Notes under the pieces: generated by a model | Database searches by the model: none | Seen by the model: the letters and a program-made list of their open reading frames with translations, nothing else | Told to the model about the DNA's origin: nothing | In this document: positions 3,001-25,994 of the stretch, one piece after another | Layout: the number at the start of each line of letters is the position of its first letter | Numbering within the stretch: position 1 is the stretch's first letter | Translations under genes and position numbers: made by a program | From: Skermanella mucosa | Lineage (GTDB): Bacteria > Pseudomonadota > Alphaproteobacteria > Azospirillales > Azospirillaceae | Reading direction: 5' to 3' | DNA: 64,000 bases | Assembly (NCBI RefSeq): GCF_016765655.2 | Contig: NZ_CP086106.1 | Location: forward strand, 3,895,001-3,959,000

Positions 3001-3350
3001 ATCGTGTTCCCCGGCGTCGCGATGGGGGAGACCGGGTTGGTTGGGTCAACGCCGGAGTAGGCGCAGATATGCGCCGAGGCGAAAAACGCACCGCTGGAAG
3101 CGGTCACCGTGTAGGTCGTCGGCTCGGAAGACCCGGCGAGTTTCCAGAATACGGCGGTCCTTTTCCCCGGATCACTCGCCTCGTGTAAGGTTGTCCAGCC
3201 GCTCGGTGTCGGGATCGTCGCATCCATGTCGCAACCGACGTACAGTATCAGCAGGTCGCCCGCTGCCACGGTCGGCCTACCTGCCTCGAACGTAGTGGGC
3301 AGCATCCCGCTGTCTGTTGTCACGCCCGTGATGTAAGTCGGTGCCGCCAT
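1..3350 (-). CDS. Large phage tail/fibre-like protein with LamG domains and repeats (C-terminus outside window)
   Basis: The frame is open from the ATG at 3350 to the left edge, at least 1116 residues with no stop. A GGGGGA ribosome site lies about 7 nt upstream of the ATG. Residues 1-190 form a Ser/Thr/Gly-rich N-terminal domain, followed by a proline run (PPPPPP). Two laminin-G/concanavalin-like jelly-roll modules are recognisable at about residues 225-440 and 830-1050, the second with a typical W-F-N-E-x-S-G opening and a K-I-Y-E-x-G strand. Between them are degenerate short repeats rich in Ala, Ser and Thr. The protein is probably a virion tail or receptor-binding protein that recognises cell-surface sugars. 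The assignment rests on domain pattern and the adjacent tail-fibre gene. Confidence 0.75.
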   Translation of the reverse strand, partial: MAAPTYITGVTTDSGMLPTTFEAGRPTVAAGDLLILYVGCDMDATIPTPSGWTTLHEASDPGKRTAVFWKLAGSSEPTTYTVTASSGAFFASAHICAYSGVDPTNPVSPIATPGNTMTTGSLTTTRPDSIYQSWITSGSTLSAPAGSTLFSVVSAGFMSYFHEARQTVATPGAVSHTYGGSAAGVTSGAFVVQPPPPPPREVAKPSGTLTVSKTGQYAALKHFVTCDGVFQSSYAGPSFQDYADVVTDVNADVFDFINGTATLATDAIGSHWTPNSPSDPDFSVQPFSSPTTYGYGAGPWTFFSRVNTSFPGSASTARCLLIYFSDDFGTIQLRTLNNTWQVIRNGTVAVSGPMPSGVSTITLVGTTTTVAVYANGALIGSASGNYSINTSMAPYVGGDGSAVPFESKIYEFGVVAAAWSASEATAYDNAPLAVVGITGGNTPQEPTGPVTHQLDGSASATATVSSAELKAYDAQGYTAPVTTAFMTPTTVHSNSAPIDGNTGTTWSNWTVARINSNVNASSSRASSSVSSSTRTRVGIGRAFGFNVPADAEVTGIEVRIVRSASASSRLRDEAVVLTGGSVPQAQYSADDKADTATLWPTTGGESAAVYGGSSDLWGLPSILVSDLATLGVGLMVRNTTTSTTTAYVNMMSMAATYREYNAAYVQQPGGTTHQLAGNALAAVSTVPSATMRRSRRIAPNTIPAAATVGPALLARTRSLAANAVSAASTVTTEMGVNKAAIQLVATISAAATVSPASLVRHRPLSGNAVSAAATSSATTLTRTRLITAEASESSSVAPADLVRTRLLAAAPVAAAATANPASMTVRKPGNRTVEKPTTEVSFTKSGKYAGTTGYWIFNEQSGLSPNIANPGTGDAVPMGGITTASDEVGRHLLGTATYANYFATGLTGDQLGIGGSQPFTIFARVNPSAAQDQGGIFSYGSGAAARNLSIRSFDDRFLVDNGQAEMSLVQGEVPRDAVSTFALTYDGTQLHFYYNGVRRVSQTIALDAGGGSSLQLGRFTYGAASLENKHAWHGKIYEVGTVSGVAWSAQDVSDYDANPLEALSFAAPAVIHELVAETGSATSSATATTLNPKRGLAADLVSATAAATSSTLVRQR
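866..1341 (-). repeat. Seven degenerate 22-24-residue repeats inside the tail gene
   Basis: Read on the minus strand, the protein here repeats a unit of the form (H)QLAGNAxxAAxTVxxAxLxRxR about seven times in a row. Units start with IAPNT, LAANA, LVATI, LSGNA, ITAEA and LAAAP. A partial further set begins at about position 134 and runs off the left edge, and a single copy sits near 2003-1929. The units are degenerate at DNA level, so this is old duplication rather than recent slippage. They probably form a rod or spacer between the LamG modules. Confidence 0.7.
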
Positions 3351-3442: not shown

Positions 3443-3826
3443 TTAATCGATGGAGAAATTCAGGCTCGACGCGGCGAACACGGCGGTATCGCCCGAGGCG
3501 ACCTGCTTGCTGGTGCCCAGCGTGCCGTGGAAAATCAGGGTCGCGCCGTTGAACAGGCCGAAACCGGCCACGGTGCCCCAATCGGCGGAGGCGGTGGTGA
3601 ACGCGATCTCGGCATTGTTGGTCGCGCTGTTGCCGGTCACGGTCCAGGACGCCGAGGGGACGGCCTTGCGGGCGTAGCTGCCACCCGTCACCTCGGTGCC
3701 GCCGCCAGTTTCGCCCGGCGCGGTGGTGTACAGCGCCAGATCGAGCGAGTTCGGCATGGTGCCGAGGGTGGTCTTGCCAAAAATGTGGTTGAGAATAGCG
3801 GTCTCGTAAGTATTCGAGAAAGACAT
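3443..3826 (-). CDS. Small phage tail-fibre-family protein
   Basis: This 127-residue protein opens with MSFSNTYETAILNHIFG and contains LALYTTAPGETGGGTEV and a GGSYAR-type motif. That arrangement is typical of a small structural protein family common in tailed phages, often annotated as tail fibre protein. The body is beta-rich with many Thr, Ser and Gly residues and no membrane segment. The start is supported by an AGAGGA ribosome site about 11 nt upstream. It lies just upstream of the large LamG tail gene on the same strand. A virion surface role is inferred from family and context. Confidence 0.8.
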   Translation of the reverse strand: MSFSNTYETAILNHIFGKTTLGTMPNSLDLALYTTAPGETGGGTEVTGGSYARKAVPSASWTVTGNSATNNAEIAFTTASADWGTVAGFGLFNGATLIFHGTLGTSKQVASGDTAVFAASSLNFSID

Positions 3827-14494: not shown

Positions 14495-15451
14495 ATGGGC
14501 ACGACCACCGGCACAGCGCAGGAGCCGACCGACCCCGATCCGCTTGGTCAACAGGAGGAAAGCGCCACCAGAGCGCGCCCGCCGATCCTCTACAAATACA
14601 TGGGCGTTGAGTACGGGATTGAGGTCTTCACGAAAGCGCGGATCAAATACACCCAACCGGGCGAGTTGAACGACCCGTTCGAATGCAAGCCGTTTCTGCT
14701 CGGTCCTGTTGATCCCGAGCACAGGAATGAATCGATGGCATCGCAACATGTCAAAGACAACATAGAGAAAATCGCACAAGCAGCAGCCAATAAAGGCAAC
14801 CGCCAGCAGCGACGACAGAAGAACAGTCGCCGCACCTATAAAGTGATAAGAAGTAAAGCACTTACACTTTTCCATCAGTCAATGGACAACCTAGATCAGA
14901 AACACACCCACTACATCAATAGGGAGGTCGCCACTTATCGAGATAGGATCGCAATGGTCTGCCTGACAGAGTCGCGCACCAATCTCCTGATGTGGTCACA
15001 CTACGCCGATCAGCACGCCGGGTTCGTCATCGGCGTTCACACAGCACATCCCTGCTTCAACCGGCAGAGAAGCGAGGCCGACGACCACAACTATTTCCGG
15101 CCAGTGATCTACTCGGATGTTCGACCGAATTTCTACATGAACCAAATCAGGTCGCGCGAGCCGATCATCCTGACGAAGAGCAGAGAATGGAAAGACGAGA
15201 AAGAGTGGCGGATCGTGGCCCCGCTGGAACTCCTGACGAAGGACCCGAAGAACGGAAAATACTTTTACGACCTGCCAATTGAAGCAATCAAGGAAGTCTA
15301 CATGGGGGTGCGAATTTCACCCGCCCTTCGGAACCGGATCATCGAAGAACTGGTCAAACGTCAGGATCAACACACCATCAAACTATTCCAGATGGAACAA
15401 AGCGAGCGCCACTACGCATTGGTCGAGAAAGAGGTGCATTACCGAACTTGA
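14495..15451 (+). CDS. DUF2971 family protein
   Basis: The protein has 318 residues with the order of motifs of the DUF2971 family: LYKYMG and IKYTQPGELNDPFEC near residues 30-60, MVCLTESRTNLLMWSHYADQHAGFVIG near 150-175, then FRPVIYSDVRP, SREWKDEKEWRIV and PIEAIKEVYMG. These proteins are common in mobile and defence-associated regions; their activity is unknown. A very good ribosome site (GGAAGGAGGAG) precedes the ATG. The gene is AT-richer in its middle than the neighbours. It stands alone and may serve in exclusion of other phages, which is inference from context only. Confidence 0.85.
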   Translation: MGTTTGTAQEPTDPDPLGQQEESATRARPPILYKYMGVEYGIEVFTKARIKYTQPGELNDPFECKPFLLGPVDPEHRNESMASQHVKDNIEKIAQAAANKGNRQQRRQKNSRRTYKVIRSKALTLFHQSMDNLDQKHTHYINREVATYRDRIAMVCLTESRTNLLMWSHYADQHAGFVIGVHTAHPCFNRQRSEADDHNYFRPVIYSDVRPNFYMNQIRSREPIILTKSREWKDEKEWRIVAPLELLTKDPKNGKYFYDLPIEAIKEVYMGVRISPALRNRIIEELVKRQDQHTIKLFQMEQSERHYALVEKEVHYRT

Positions 15452-16829: not shown

Positions 16830-17153
16830 ATGATCCTCACCGCCGTCCTGACCTACTGCTACCTCGTCGCGGGCATCGTCCTCGCCGTCTTCGACGCCGA
16901 ACCGGGCTGGCGCAGGCGCATCGCGGTCACCGTCCTGTGGATCGCGCTGCTTCCGGCCGAGGCGATCTGGCGCGCCCTGGCGGCGCGGATGGCCTGGGTT
17001 CCCACCGCCCGCAAGCTGTTCGCCCGCAAGCGCCGCATCGTCGCGGTCACCGCCCAGCTTCTCGCCGCCGACGTGCCCGCTGTTCACGGCAAGAGCTACG
17101 ACGACCCGCCCGCCCTGGTCATCCACAATGCCAGCTACGAAGAATTGCTTTGA
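16830..17153 (+). CDS. Small membrane protein of unknown function
   Basis: The protein has 107 residues from the ATG at 16830; a GTG 33 bp upstream is less likely. The N-terminus is a membrane helix (MILTAVLTYCYLVAGIVLAVF). A second hydrophobic segment (RIAVTVLWIALLPAEAIWRALA) follows, then a basic loop and a soluble tail of about 40 residues ending HNASYEELL. It ends 63 bp before the next gene on the same strand. Function is unknown. Confidence 0.6.
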   Translation: MILTAVLTYCYLVAGIVLAVFDAEPGWRRRIAVTVLWIALLPAEAIWRALAARMAWVPTARKLFARKRRIVAVTAQLLAADVPAVHGKSYDDPPALVIHNASYEELL

Positions 17154-17215
17154 TCTGCAAGCTGCACCACCGCTACCACTGGCGTTTGGTTTACCAGATG
17201 GGGGGACGGTGCGTG

Positions 17216-17899
17216 ATGAGATGGAGCGGGACCGGGTATCGTTATCTGAAGATCGCGGCCGACGCCTACACGGACTATCTGCCGCTGGCGTCGGAGATGG
17301 CTGAACTGAGGCGGCGCTACGAGGGTGGGCCGGTGCCGGTCCACGCCGACGAGCGGTATCCCGAACTCGATCACGAGATGATGCGCAGCGCCGTCGAGAC
17401 CATCGTGTTTTCGGCCCTGTACCTTGAGTCCCGCCTGTACGATTTCGCCGCGCATCACCTGGGCGACGACTACGTGGAAAAGCATATCGACAGGCTTCCC
17501 CTGGCTTTGAAGTTCGTGCGCGTGCCGAAGCAGGTGACCGGCCGGGAGATCGACCAGGAAGGCTTGGCTTACAAGGCCCTGGCGAACTTGATCAAGGCGC
17601 GGAACGACTTGGTTCACCCCAAGTCGTCGCCCGCGACGGTCCTGGACCCGGTGGCGTTCGGGCAGGAGAAGGCTGCCAACGAGGCCAAGTATCGCAAAAT
17701 CCATGACGATGCCCACGGCGCTCTGCGGGCCGTGATCCTGATGTCGTTCGAGATGGCCCGGCTGGTCGCGCCGCACTACTGCCAGATCACCGACCTTTCC
17801 ATCGAGCCGAACACCTTCGATCTGCGGCACCCGCAGCAGGTCCACGCCCTGGCGATCCGGATCAAGGCAGAGTACGAGCAGTCCGTCGCCGGGGACTAA
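17216..17899 (+). CDS. HEPN-like protein with an RNDLVH motif
   Basis: The protein has 227 residues from the ATG at 17216, chosen because a GGGGGGA ribosome site lies 10 nt upstream; the open frame reaches further back but has poor coding character. It is nearly all helical. Residues 55-90 and 110-140 form the core, with R129-N-D-L-V-H134, which fits the R-x4-6-H signature of HEPN ribonuclease domains. HEPN proteins often serve as toxins or antiphage effectors, but some are inactive scaffolds. No partner antitoxin gene is evident. HEPN assignment is by motif and helical pattern only. Confidence 0.6.
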   Translation: MRWSGTGYRYLKIAADAYTDYLPLASEMAELRRRYEGGPVPVHADERYPELDHEMMRSAVETIVFSALYLESRLYDFAAHHLGDDYVEKHIDRLPLALKFVRVPKQVTGREIDQEGLAYKALANLIKARNDLVHPKSSPATVLDPVAFGQEKAANEAKYRKIHDDAHGALRAVILMSFEMARLVAPHYCQITDLSIEPNTFDLRHPQQVHALAIRIKAEYEQSVAGD

Positions 17900-19655: not shown

Positions 19656-21038
19656 CTACGCGGAGCGCCTGCGCGTTATCCTGGATGGCCTCTTCGGCTC
19701 CCGCACGGTCTCCTGCCGGGGCTTCAGCCCCGCCGCCGCCATCACCGCCTGAGCGACCTCCCGTGCCGCCCGCTGTCCCTCCGGGGTCATCAGGTAGGCG
19801 TCCGCGTTCTCCCGCGTATTGGCGGTCAGTACATCGACCATGCTGACGACGTTCACGTGGCTCAAATAGTGGGTAGCCATCATCTCCGGGGAAGTCCCCA
19901 TGTTCTCGGCCACGTAGGTCAGGTTCAAGCCCGGCTCCATGATCCGCCTCATGGCGTAGCTGTGCCTGAGCGAGTAGGCCGAGCGGGCGCGCCCGGCCGA
20001 ATCGAAGCGCAGCTTGGTCTCGACCAGGAGCTTGCGGAACGCCACGGTGAAATCGTACTCGCCGCCGCCCGGCCCCAGGAAGATCAGGTCGTCCGGCCCG
20101 GCCGCGCGGGCGATCCGACGCAACTCCCGAACCCAGGCGACCGCCTCGGGCTGACTCATGGATTCGCGTTCCATCCCCTTGCCCCGGCACCACAGGCGCA
20201 GCACCAAGGTGCCGTCCCCCCGCGCCATCTCCCGCACATCGCGCCACTGCATGATTCGGGCGTCGTTGGTTCGCACCCCGCTATGCAGCAGAAACATGAC
20301 GTAGCACAGCAGCATTCGGTTGTTCCACTTGGTCTCGCTGTTCCGTGCGCCGTCGATCTGGCGGTTGATCCGGTCGAGCAGGATGGCGATCTCGCCGTCG
20401 CTGAAGCTGGCCCGGCTGACCATCTTCTTGCGCACCCCGAGTCGCGGCAGCGCCATCTCCGGCAGTGCGGCGATCAGCTTCCGCTCAAGGGCCAGCCGCA
20501 GGATTGCCCGCAGCGTGTCACGCTCCTGCTCCAGGGTGCCGCGCGACAGTCGGCGCGGCTGGCCGTACTTGTCCACGTCACCCAGCTTCGGTTTGCCGGT
20601 GCCCAGCCGGTGCAGCACGTAGTCATCCCAAACCTTCGCCGTGATCTGCGACGGCTGGAGCTTGCCGAGCACCGGCAGCAGTACGTTCAGTTTCGTTCGG
20701 TAGGTCCGCAGCACGTGGCTGCCGCGACCGGTCGCGGCGACCCGTCTGGCCTTCTCCGCCAGCATGTCCTCGGCGAGGCTGGCGACAGTCGCCCTGGAGA
20801 GCTTCAGGCCGAGCTTGGCGACCCCGGATTGTTCGTAGAACATCCTGAGTGCTGCCTGTCTGGCGGCGTCGCGGTCGCGCTTCCTGGTGCTGAGCCGCTG
20901 ATAGGTCTTGCCGCCGTCGTAGGTGATCCGCGCGTACCAGATCGTGTCGCGCAGGAACAGAACCGCTTCGCGCACCGGTCCCTGATCCGGCTCCTCGCGC
21001 ACCACTTCGATGTACTCGGTTTCCCTGACGCGCGGCAT
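19656..21038 (-). CDS. Tyrosine-type site-specific integrase
   Basis: The protein has 460 residues. An N-terminal arm-binding and SAM-like part reaches residue 190. The catalytic domain holds Arg256 (HSGVR), Lys287 (GKG), the box Y-S-L-R358-H359, and the nucleophile Tyr391 in ATHYLSH. The first box residue, usually His, is Tyr355. The gene lies 150 bp from the point where nifS is broken, pointing away from it, as expected for the integrase of an element inserted there. An inverted repeat (TGCTGGTTT/AAACCAGCA, 21041-21095) spans its promoter region. The enzyme should insert and, with an excisionase, remove the element. Confidence 0.92.
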   Translation of the reverse strand: MPRVRETEYIEVVREEPDQGPVREAVLFLRDTIWYARITYDGGKTYQRLSTRKRDRDAARQAALRMFYEQSGVAKLGLKLSRATVASLAEDMLAEKARRVAATGRGSHVLRTYRTKLNVLLPVLGKLQPSQITAKVWDDYVLHRLGTGKPKLGDVDKYGQPRRLSRGTLEQERDTLRAILRLALERKLIAALPEMALPRLGVRKKMVSRASFSDGEIAILLDRINRQIDGARNSETKWNNRMLLCYVMFLLHSGVRTNDARIMQWRDVREMARGDGTLVLRLWCRGKGMERESMSQPEAVAWVRELRRIARAAGPDDLIFLGPGGGEYDFTVAFRKLLVETKLRFDSAGRARSAYSLRHSYAMRRIMEPGLNLTYVAENMGTSPEMMATHYLSHVNVVSMVDVLTANTRENADAYLMTPEGQRAAREVAQAVMAAAGLKPRQETVREPKRPSRITRRRSA

Positions 21039-21062
21039 CGTGCTGGTTTCCCCACTGGGTTT

Positions 21063-21629
21063 TCACTGTGCATTCCGGATTCCAGAAAACCAGCATTTGC
21101 GCGGGTTTGCAAGGACTGGGCAATGGTGTGTTTTACGTCGTTCACCAAATATATTGTTATCAAACAATAAGTTAGTTTGATATGCGTTGTTGGCCCACAT
21201 CACCGAAACCAGCGCCGTGTCGCTCGATACCACGGAGGCCAGCTCGTGCCGGCGCAGCCGGCCGGAGGCGTCCACCGGCAGGACGGTGACGTGGTAGCCC
21301 TGGCTCCGCAGGTCCTCGAACAGCATCAGGTTGGCCGGATGCTCGACCGCCGTGGTCACCACGTGGCGCCGGTCGGGCCGGGAGCGCAGCGTGCCGAGGA
21401 TCGCCAGATGGTTCGCCTCGGTGGCGCTCGACGTGAACACGATCTCCGACGCCTTGGCGCTGATCAGGCCGGCGACGGCACTGCGGGCCTGGCCGACCGC
21501 CTGCTTGACCGCCATCGCCGAGCCGTGGGCGCTGGAAGGGTTGGCGTAAATCTCGCCGAGATAGGGAAGCATGGCGGCCACGACCTCGGGAGCAGGCATG
21601 GTCGTGGCGTTGTTGTCCAGATAGATCAC
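21063..21629 (-). pseudogene. nifS: NifS cysteine desulfurase, 5' part only, interrupted by the element
   Basis: The GTG start at 21629 has GAGG six nt upstream. Residues 1-148 are clearly NifS: MIYLDNNATTMPAPEVV, NPSSAHGSAM, EIVFTSSATEANHLAI, VTTAVEHPAN with the PLP-stacking His, and ALVSVMWANN. After Asn148 the frame runs into element DNA for 40 foreign residues (AYQTNLLFDNN and on) to a stop at 21063. The PLP-binding Lys and catalytic Cys of the family lie in the missing part. As written the gene cannot make an active enzyme; the 3' part is expected left of the window. It is last in the visible nif operon. Confidence 0.92.
21158..21188. other. Right element end with inverted arms, next to the nifS break
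   Basis: TATCAAAC (21158-21165) and GTTTGATA (21175-21182) are perfect inverted arms around a 9-bp spacer, in an AT-rich stretch. The nifS reading frame ends its homology at 21185-21186, directly adjacent. Tyrosine recombinase sites commonly have such arms. The exact crossover bases need the other end of the element, which is outside the window; they may lie in the GGGCCAACAACG part of nifS. Confidence 0.55.
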
Positions 21630-21675
21630 GGCACACCTCGCATCAGTCGGTCGCGGCGCCCGCCGGCGACGCGGA

Positions 21676-22056
21676 TCAGTCCATCCGTCCGGGAACCATG
21701 GCGCGGGCCCCCAGCACCGGGGCGATCTCCTCCTCCAGGCAGCCGACCAGCTTGCCGCCGGGGAATTCGACCAGGTAGACCGGCACGTTGTTGGCTTCCG
21801 GGGCGTACCCGACCCGGATGATCTCGCCGACCGTGTCCTTGACCACCAGCAGGCTTCCGGCCGGGCTGTCGGGATGGCTGCCGTCGTTCAGCAGGTCGGC
21901 CGTCGCCTTGACGGCGATGCCCCACTCGTACTTGGGCTCGCGCGGCGGCGTGAAGCCGGTGCCGCCGCCTTCCGGCCCGGCGACGAGGATGTCTGCGGGG
22001 AGGCTGTCGGAGGAGAGATCCGGGCCGTTGTCCTCGGGGGTCTTCTGATCGGTCAT
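21676..22056 (-). CDS. nifZ: NifZ-domain protein, second copy
   Basis: The protein has 126 residues. After an acidic, Pro/Gly-rich N-terminus of about 40 residues comes the NifZ domain: WGIAVKATADLLNDGSHPDSPAGSLLVVKDTVGEIIRVGYAPEANNVPVYLVEFPGGKLVGCLEEE. NifZ acts in P-cluster maturation of the MoFe protein in Azotobacter. CGGAG lies 8 nt before the ATG. It sits between the first nifZ gene and nifS on the same strand, 46 bp from the nifS start. The N-terminal extension is unusual for the short NifZ forms. Confidence 0.85.
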   Translation of the reverse strand: MTDQKTPEDNGPDLSSDSLPADILVAGPEGGGTGFTPPREPKYEWGIAVKATADLLNDGSHPDSPAGSLLVVKDTVGEIIRVGYAPEANNVPVYLVEFPGGKLVGCLEEEIAPVLGARAMVPGRMD

Positions 22057-23931: not shown

Positions 23932-24123
23932 TCAGGCCGGCACGCAGCAGTCGGCCGGGCAGACGGCCGCGCACTGCGGGGCGTCGAAGCTGCCCTGGCA
24001 CTCGGTGCACTTGGACGGGTCGATCACGTAGGTGCCCTTCTTGAAGCTGATCGCCTCGTTCGGGCATTCGGCTTCGCAGGCGCCGCAGACGGTGCAATCG
24101 CTCGCTTTGATCTTGTAGGCCAT
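23932..24123 (-). CDS. fdxN: FdxN-type 2[4Fe-4S] ferredoxin
   Basis: The protein has 63 residues from the ATG at 24123, with AGGAG 8 nt upstream. Two cluster motifs are complete: Cys10-x2-Cys13-x2-Cys16-x3-Cys20-Pro, and Cys39-x2-Cys42-x8-Cys51-x3-Cys55-Pro. The longer spacing in the second motif is the signature of nif-associated FdxN ferredoxins. It follows nifB by about 130 bp on the same strand. Such proteins supply electrons for nitrogenase or for NifB and cofactor assembly. Confidence 0.93.
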
Positions 24124-24254: not shown

Positions 24255-25799
24255 TCAGGCACGCCGCGCGGTATAGGCGCCCTGGCGGATCACCGCGTCG
24301 GCGCCGATCTTCTCGCGGATCGCACCCGTGCCGAGCCGCTCGGTATAGGCGGCGTAATAGGCCAGGGCCGATTCCTCGATGTATTCGAAGGCGAAGCGGT
24401 CCACCGGCTCGATCCCGGCCGCTTCCAGGGACTTGCTCGGGCAGCCGCCGATCTTGGCGACCAGCACGGCGACGCAGTCGTTGATCGCCTGGATGATGGT
24501 TTCCAGCCCGTCCTCGTCGCCGGAGCCACCCTCGCAATAGAGATCGACGCGGCGGTGGCCGACGAACTTGGCGCCCCGGGCATCGACCTCGTAGATCTGG
24601 AATTCCTTGGCGTGGCCGAAATGCTCGTTGATCCGCTCGCCGCCCTTGGTCGCCACGGCGATCAGGATCGGCTTCTCGCCGGCGATGTGGGCGACCTCGG
24701 CGATGGCGGCGGCCTTGGACTGGTGGCGCTGGGCCCGCTCGGCCTCGACATGCTCGCGGTAGGTCTCGCGCTTGGTGAAGCCGCCGCCGTCGATGTCGAT
24801 GTCCATCTCCATCACCTTCTCGGCGGTGAACTCCGAGCCCCGGTCCTCGCCCAGCAGGCCGACGGCGTCGGCGCGGCACTGGCGGCAATGGCGCATCAGC
24901 TTCATGTCGCCTTCGCACTTGTCCTGGAGCGCCTTCAGTTCCTGCGCGGTCGGTCCCCGCTGGCCGGTCAGGCCGAAATGGGTGCCGTGCGCCGCGTCGG
25001 AGATCAGCGGCATGATGTTGTGCAGGAACGCGCCGCGGGCCTTGACCTCGCGGTTGACGTCCATCAGGTGCTCGTCGTTGATGCCGGGGATCATCACCGA
25101 GTTGATCTTGGCGAGGATGCCGGCGTCGCGCAGCATCTCCAGCCCCAGCATCTGGCGCTCGTGGAGGATCTTCGACGCCTCGATCCCGGTCCAGCGCTTA
25201 TGGTCGTAGAAGATCCAGGGGTAGATGTGCTGGCCGACCTCGGGATCGACCATGTTGATGGTGATCGTGACGTGGTCGATGTTCAGGTCCTTGATGCGGT
25301 CCACATAGTCCGGCAGGGCCAGCCCGTTGGTGGACAGGCACAGCTTGATGTCCGGCGCCAGCTTTGAGAGCTGCTCGAAGGTCTCGATCGTCTGCTTGGC
25401 GCCGGCCGCGAGGCTGTCGCCCGGCCCGGCGATGCCGACCACGGAGAGCTGCGGGATTTCGGCGGCAACGGCCAGCACCTTGCGGACGGCCTGCTCGGCG
25501 GTCAGCTTCTCGCTGACGACGCCGGGGCGGCTCTCGTTGGCGCAGTCGTACTTGCGGTTGCAGTAGTTGCATTGGATGTTGCAGGCCGGAGCCACGGCGA
25601 CATGCATGCGCGCATAGTAGTGGTGGGCCTCTTCGCTGTAGCAGGGATGGTTCTTGACCTTCTCCCATACTTCCGGCGTCATGTCCGAAGGACCGTCCGA
25701 AGAGCCGCAACTGGATGTCGTGCAGCCCGAAGCGGCCGGTGCCGGCTGGGACTTCAACTCCCCCACGCCGAGGATGCTGTCCAACGAGATTACATTCAT
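24255..25799 (-). CDS. nifB: Nitrogenase cofactor biosynthesis radical SAM protein NifB
   Basis: The protein has 514 residues from the ATG at 25799, with GGAAGGA 8 nt upstream. The radical SAM domain has Cys73-x3-Cys77-x2-Cys80 ([15 protein letters not shown]) that binds the [4Fe-4S]-SAM cluster, plus further cysteines including the C-R-Q-C pair near residue 310 that belong to accessory clusters. The C-terminal 130 residues are a NifX-like domain ([29 protein letters not shown]). NifB makes NifB-co, the 8Fe-9S-C core of FeMo-co. Promoter and NifA site upstream show nitrogen-dependent control. It is the first gene of the visible operon. Confidence 0.97.
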
Positions 25800-25854: not shown

Positions 25855-25870
25855 AGCAAGAACGGGGCCA
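25855..25870 (-). promoter_or_regulatory. Sigma-54 (-24/-12) promoter of nifB
   Basis: Read on the minus strand, TGGCCCCGTTCTTGCT matches the RpoN pattern TGGCACG-N4-TTGCW, with GG and GC exactly 12 bp apart. Transcription would start near 25844, about 45 nt before the nifB start. A NifA site stands about 110-125 bp further upstream. Confidence 0.85.
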
Positions 25871-25978: not shown

Positions 25979-25994
25979 TGTCGGGTATCCGACA
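25979..25994. promoter_or_regulatory. NifA upstream activator site
   Basis: TGT-CGGGTATCCG-ACA fits the NifA consensus TGT-N10-ACA exactly, and the inner ten bases are also nearly palindromic. It lies about 110-125 bp upstream of the -24/-12 promoter, the usual distance for NifA-sigma-54 activation by DNA looping. Confidence 0.85.

Follow-up and report, generated by a model that had tools for sequence, protein, structure and literature searches.

The window, i.e., the whole 64,000-nucleotide stretch of Skermanella mucosa DNA that was analyzed, corresponds to C1:3895001-3959000 in a genome of 7,840,710 bases in 5 contigs. On its minus strand a nifS gene starts at 21629, matches positions 1-148 of TIGR03402 in a profile search, and then passes into element DNA, where the truncated open frame runs on to a stop at 21063-21065. 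The gene part (21185-21629, minus strand, including the core described next) is the 5' half of a paralogue that we call nifS2. It ends in a 15-bp attachment core, TGTGGGCCAACAACG (21185-21199, minus strand), identified by repeat comparison of both element ends and placed on the codons for M-W-A-N-N-E in the motif MWANNETG, which is conserved in NifS. An AT-rich inverted repeat, TATCAAAC-N9-GTTTGATA, occupies 21158-21182 at the right end of the element, with arms at 21158-21165 and 21175-21182; this is possibly a binding site of the integrase or of a repressor.

The neighboring gene encodes a tyrosine integrase of 460 aa (19656-21038, minus strand; phrog_1 6.8e-28, phrog_216 1.9e-10; 24.8 bits against PF00589, under the cut-off of 27.1). 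Its start lies 147 bp from the core and 24 bp past the stop of the truncated nifS, and its direction is that of nifS. In an alignment with 7 distant relatives (25-29% identity), residues R256, K287, R358, H359 and Y391 are invariant; we take these R-K-R-H-Y positions to be the catalytic residues. Thus, an earlier note on this DNA was correct in describing a nifS intact to residue 148, a tyrosine integrase gene about 150 bp from the break and AT-rich inverted arms at the junction. The same note had looked to a left end with the rest of nifS and to a short direct repeat at both ends, and both were found. The left copy of the core, a perfect 15-bp match, is at C1:3870753-3870767, outside the window; the genome of 7.84 Mb holds exactly 2 exact copies, one per prophage end, and the control pattern, read backwards, gave 0 matches. 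The core is also the sole common string of 11 bases or more in the 0.7-0.8-kb stretches compared around the two ends. Left of the element and outside the window, C1:3870058-3870771 (minus strand) encodes the 3' part of a nifS, matching TIGR03402 positions 142-379.

From core to core the element measures 45,432 bases (C1:3870753-3916184), of which the right 21.2 kb are window positions 1-21184 and the left 24.2 kb lie outside; its GC content is 61.8% vs 66.3-66.5% in the flanks. Genes were called with a simple custom ORF scorer, and 40 proteins were scanned against PHROGs, leaving out several small ORFs and one split gene. All 18 scanned proteins from the part left of the window match phage families, including terminase, portal, head morphogenesis, scaffold, major capsid, head-tail connectors, tail terminator, tape measure, minor tail proteins, central tail fibre J and other virion parts. 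Genes for packaging, the head, the connectors and a long tail follow one another in order, as in siphovirus-type prophages, and the integrase and the direct-repeat attachment sites are those of a temperate prophage. The element is, therefore, a siphovirus-type prophage, and the prophage that the earlier note had suspected within nifS is real. Within the window, the plus strand carries a replication-initiation-like phage gene (18813-19652; phrog_270 3e-8), a primase/helicase-like phage gene (7859-9544; phrog_1156, DNA primase, 1.1e-10; DUF5906 9.3e-14) and a phage endonuclease (4155-4532; phrog_945 1.8e-40), and the minus strand a member of a phage head protein family (3443-3826; phrog_240 1.9e-17). 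No PHROG match was obtained for 5 of the 10 proteins of one scanned batch and 7 of the 10 of another, and no excisionase, repressor or lysis gene was recognized among the 40 proteins, one of which was scanned as a 1116-aa part.

Several other genes of the prophage deserve mention. A DUF2971 gene (14495-15451, plus strand; PF11185 6.5e-9; phrog_1762, unknown function, 2.3e-45) has a GC fraction of 0.53 vs 0.62 for the element and is possibly late-acquired cargo. A 249-aa protein (17150-17899) without a Pfam or PHROG match contains RNDLVH, which in our reading resembles a HEPN-type motif. A repetitive protein of 1557 aa, rich in Ala, Ser and Thr, is encoded from L010:13677 to window position 3350 on the minus strand, opposite in direction to the tail genes; 1116 aa of it were scanned and gave a weak virion-structural match only (0.0059).

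The phage has few recognizable relatives. No near DNA relative of 9.2 kb of the element was found among 50,697 phage records. An 8.9-kb prophage stretch had one match in this genome (best 5 of 334 candidates) and none in 58 other genomes (best 5 candidates or fewer per genome). The portal protein found matches in 427 phage records, all with less than 60% identity, the best among the 15 matches listed being 37%. For the integrase, searches with a reach of close relatives only returned nothing from viral_contigs and, from genome_contigs, 8 stretches that fit the pattern, none of which encodes a relative; tblastn against the phage records found none either. Integrases with 27-31% identity are present in 6 of 98 other genomes. 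Since no relative known to use nifS was found, in a comparison that left out the insertion sites of the integrases at 27-31% identity, the preference of the phage for nifS rests on a single insertion. We also scanned genome_contigs for a nifS broken at the same base, with a pattern for the M-W-A-N-N spelling only and in a collection that may leave out the host genome itself; none of the 16 stretches retrieved is an interrupted nifS, as judged by translation (6 are ordinary proteins with NNV-type motifs and 10 have an unrelated reading frame).

The two nifS halves at the ends of the prophage belong to different paralogues, the left (3') half to nifS1 and the right (5') half to nifS2. The protein part before the core has 42-49% identity to every one of 30 NifS proteins of relatives, and the part after the core reaches 90-98% with those of four congeners and 68-84% with the remaining 26. 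These congeners have two nifS genes each, one scoring over 600 bits (nifS1) and one scoring 468-482 bits (nifS2), on the same strand and approximately 21 kb apart in G001, G002 and G003 and on two contigs in G004. In ungapped comparisons of 300 bp with G001, identity to nifS2 is 95% on the N side of the core and 57% on the C side, and identity to nifS1 is 35% and 96%, respectively. Homology to G001 extends over C1:3863690-3870767, up to and including the final base of the left core, and starts again with the right core at 3916185, continuing to 3921714; the same two breaks at the core are seen against G002. From these breaks and ungapped identities, it follows that the prophage has the 3' half of nifS1 on one side and the 5' half of nifS2 on the other. 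The 15-bp core is identical in nifS1 and nifS2 of all four congeners and, these included, is identical between both nifS genes in 6 of 16 genomes compared.

If the flanks are joined at the core, they form one in-frame nifS of 395 codons with the motifs SGHKLH and SSGSACTSGS, presumably the functional lysine and cysteine motifs. Precise excision would, however, yield this nifS2/nifS1 chimera only, and not nitrogen fixation; the host gene that was originally interrupted is not restored by excision, as it would be in a prophage gene switch. The alternative in the earlier note is half right. A dead nifS agrees with the finding that none of the 9 NifS-type matches in the genome reaches the family cut-off (342 and 325 bits for the two best full-length matches vs 530.75). 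The accompanying suggestion, that another cysteine desulfurase must replace it, does not hold, because the nitrogenase genes are gone and no desulfurase is needed for nitrogenase.

The interval that separates the two nifS genes in the congeners is missing here. In G001 it is a nitrogenase block of 20,577 bases (20.6 kb; G001:3695145-3715721) without a counterpart at the prophage locus. The 22 gene calls between the two nifS genes of G001 include nifH, nifD, nifK, nifE, nifN, nifX, nifU, an IscA-type gene, nif ferredoxin III, a NifX-associated protein and draG. Eight of these genes (nifU, nifX, nifN, nifE, nifK, nifD, nifH and draG) are all present in the same interval of G002 (8/8) and G003 (8/8), and none (0/8) was found here in a local check of 97 kb around the locus. 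Genome-wide, DNA searches with three parts that jointly cover the block gave only weak matches, with the best 40 of 594, 515 and 691 candidates considered; the absence of nifU, nifX and draG rests on these best candidates. The first search returned 40 matches, mostly pieces of 65-93% identity in one non-nif gene, the remainder being one at 71% in another non-nif gene and four short ones of 69-73% in nifH; the second and third yielded one match and two matches, respectively, with identities of 67-76%, located in the nifS halves and in a further cysteine desulfurase.

A second nitrogenase elsewhere in the genome was considered and rejected. In family searches in which all candidates were scored, the NifH family had 5 hits in the whole genome, the two full-length ones being BchX and BchL and the other three short and weak (28-42 bits), and the NifD family had 4 hits, namely BchY, BchZ, BchB and BchN. 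All six full-length hits are thus Bch proteins of photosynthesis genes. The bacteriochlorophyll genes bchX, bchY, bchZ and bchL, bchB, bchN are located at C1:1964984-1968573 and 1983455-1990719.

These observations agree with the published phenotype of the species. Choi and others (PMC11767975) reported for strain 8-14-6T a genome of 7,840,710 bases, with a chromosome of 6,407,183 bases, and found nifDKH present in TT6T, S. rosea, S. pratensis, S. aerolata and S. stibiiresistens and absent from S. mucosa. In the same paper, S. mucosa did not grow without NH4Cl, and TT6T and S. rosea did. No stated cause for the absence of nifDKH was found there, and a search of the main text for words beginning with phage, prophage or nifS returned none; the paper mentions "bacteriophage immunity" with regard to CRISPR arrays (PMC11767975). 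A prophage at the scar of the nitrogenase deletion would explain why S. mucosa fails to grow without supplied nitrogen.

Other nif genes are retained. Upstream of the truncated nifS2 and on the same strand, nifB is intact (24255-25799, minus strand; TIGR01290 668.8 bits, cut-off 343.65) and is adjoined by a 4Fe-4S ferredoxin-type gene (23932-24123, minus strand; NF033683 73.6 bits, below the cut-off of 86). The nifA gene (625.8 bits, cut-off 528.85) and nifV (score above cut-off) are intact as well, and a nifW match is under its cut-off (103 vs 117 bits). Some 56 bp before nifB there is a sigma-54-type promoter-like site with 1 mismatch (25855-25870, minus strand), the only match in the window, with 1.5 expected by chance, and a motif search found a NifA-type upstream activator-like palindrome, TGTCGGGTATCCGACA, at 25979-25994, the only match in the 10-kb stretch searched, with 0.7 expected by chance. 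It should be noted that these counts are not above chance, and that the positions of the sites alone are suggestive. No terminator-like or sigma-70-like site was found in 20900-21700, and transcription of the integrase may be coupled to the nif promoter. The dN/dS values of 14 genes or gene parts around the scar, compared to G001, are 0.03-0.25, with 12 of the 14 below 0.13; values for G001 vs G002 were left out, as they were calculated on stop-to-stop frames and inflated in some genes. The low values give no sign of decay, suggesting that the loss is recent or that the genes are still used.

The core is present at both ends, homology to the congeners ends at the core, no trace of the block was found in the genome, and the prophage stretch tested is single-copy. 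We consider it probable, at roughly three chances in four, that the phage attaches via the nifS core and that phage-associated recombination between paralogous cores removed the nitrogenase block and left the strain irreversibly Nif-. Under this model, a temperate siphovirus-type phage would attach at the 15-bp core within the MWANNETG codons of nifS. The ancestral host lineage would have had two co-oriented nifS paralogues with the same core, about 21 kb apart and bracketing the nitrogenase block, as the congeners have now. Recombination associated with the phage would then have joined the two sites and removed the block, producing the order nifS1 3' half, prophage, nifS2 5' half. This could have happened in either of two ways: a prophage may have entered each nifS gene, after which the two 45-kb copies recombined, or the integrase may have acted on one end of a prophage together with the site in the other nifS. 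Either way, the outcome would be an irreversibly Nif- strain, in which excision yields the chimeric nifS and nothing else. The causal role of the phage and the route are what we infer from sequence comparison, and the loss of a nif block with a prophage at the scar has been seen in one strain.

A more specific form of the second route, which we regard as possible but unlikely, is that the integrase, sitting in nifS2 downstream of a putative NifA-type promoter and induced with the nif genes, recombines the prophage end with the core of nifS1, so that nifHDKEN is released as a circle. If so, nif induction itself would drive nif loss, and species with a nif block bracketed by two nifS genes would be at risk from such a phage.

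The strongest competing explanation puts the deletion first: the block was lost through ordinary homologous recombination of nifS1 with nifS2, which produced an intact chimera, and the phage integrated into this chimera later by chance. The two genes are direct repeats, and ordinary recombination could have preceded the phage because 17 (G001) or 20 (G002) identical base pairs span the core in nifS1 and nifS2, the longest shared stretch in G002 and the joint second in G001. However, the genes share six (G001) or seven (G002) stretches of at least 14 bp, and the switch from one paralogue to the other is exactly at the phage core; the deletion-first order needs a crossover there by chance. Nor do nifS1 and nifS2 sequences alternate within the 300 bp that were compared on each side. 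We therefore judge this order of events to be improbable.

It is much less probable still that the assembler collapsed two identical prophages, one in each nifS, and dropped an intact nif block between them. A 45-kb repeat is generally hard to span with reads, and the route through double insertion does pass through a state with prophage in both nifS genes. On the other hand, a unique block of 20 kb would be expected to remain as a contig, and none was found among the 5 contigs; moreover, the published assembly is a Unicycler hybrid of Nanopore and Illumina reads with 820-fold coverage and a circular chromosome and plasmids, and the S. mucosa strain does not grow without ammonium (PMC11767975).

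The least credible explanation is the switch envisaged by the earlier note, a programmed element whose excision, when nitrogen is limiting, would make nifS whole again and bring back nitrogen fixation: the in-frame product of precise excision with its lysine and cysteine motifs, an integrase that reads in the direction of nifS and follows a putative NifA-type promoter, the lack of any terminator-like site found in 20900-21700, and the intact nifA would suit it, but the halves derive from nifS1 and nifS2, no nifHDKEN genes were found in the genome, and the published strain showed no growth when NH4Cl was absent (PMC11767975). As a switch for nitrogen fixation in this strain we reject it, because the nitrogenase genes were not found. 

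The prophage of this host, which we take to be an alphaproteobacterium, resembles the nif elements of cyanobacteria (in nifD, fdxN, nifH and nifK, with xisA, xisC and xisF) in that it lies inside a nif gene, between direct repeats and with a recombinase at its end. Unlike those elements, it connects parts of two paralogous genes in a genome in which no nitrogenase genes were found, and its excision would rebuild neither the original gene nor nitrogen fixation. Among prophages, the comK phage of Listeria is a gene switch in a protein-coding gene. The nifS prophage is likewise a temperate phage within a protein-coding gene, as in the "active lysogeny" of phiSa3 in hlb (PMC6597384); in active lysogeny, however, excision restores the same gene, whereas here only a chimera is possible. 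As reported in a cyanobacterial survey, 23 xis genes are co-oriented with the interrupted gene and located at the start of the element (PMC4874684), an arrangement shared by the integrase described here; the 22 interrupted ortholog groups in Table 1 of that survey do not include nifS. For Paenibacillus, it has been proposed that transposable elements and prophage near nif genes may act in their transfer and loss; the account consulted gives no base-level junction (PMC3961195), whereas here both breakpoints coincide with the attachment core of the phage and the extent of the lost block is known. Searches by title and the start of the abstract, in a full-text literature without most subscription journals, returned no report of a prophage in nifS or of a prophage-associated nifHDK deletion. 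What is new in this otherwise known prophage behavior is that the phage occupies the scar left by a nitrogenase deletion and is bounded by attachment cores from two paralogues.

Nitrogen fixation is scattered across bacterial trees, and losses in individual lineages are usually inferred from absence alone. Here, the loss can be read base by base, from a core shared by two bracketing nifS paralogues and a prophage at the scar, which suggests how the Nif- phenotype reported for one species may have arisen. The two-core bracket is still intact in the congeners that keep the nitrogenase genes; thus, phage-driven nif loss is directly testable. The bracket of two nifS genes may extend beyond the host genus: at least 10 genomes of another genus in the same family (G028, G035, G044, G046, G048, G049, G052, G053, G055 and G056) have two nifS genes on one strand of one contig, approximately 21-26 kb apart.
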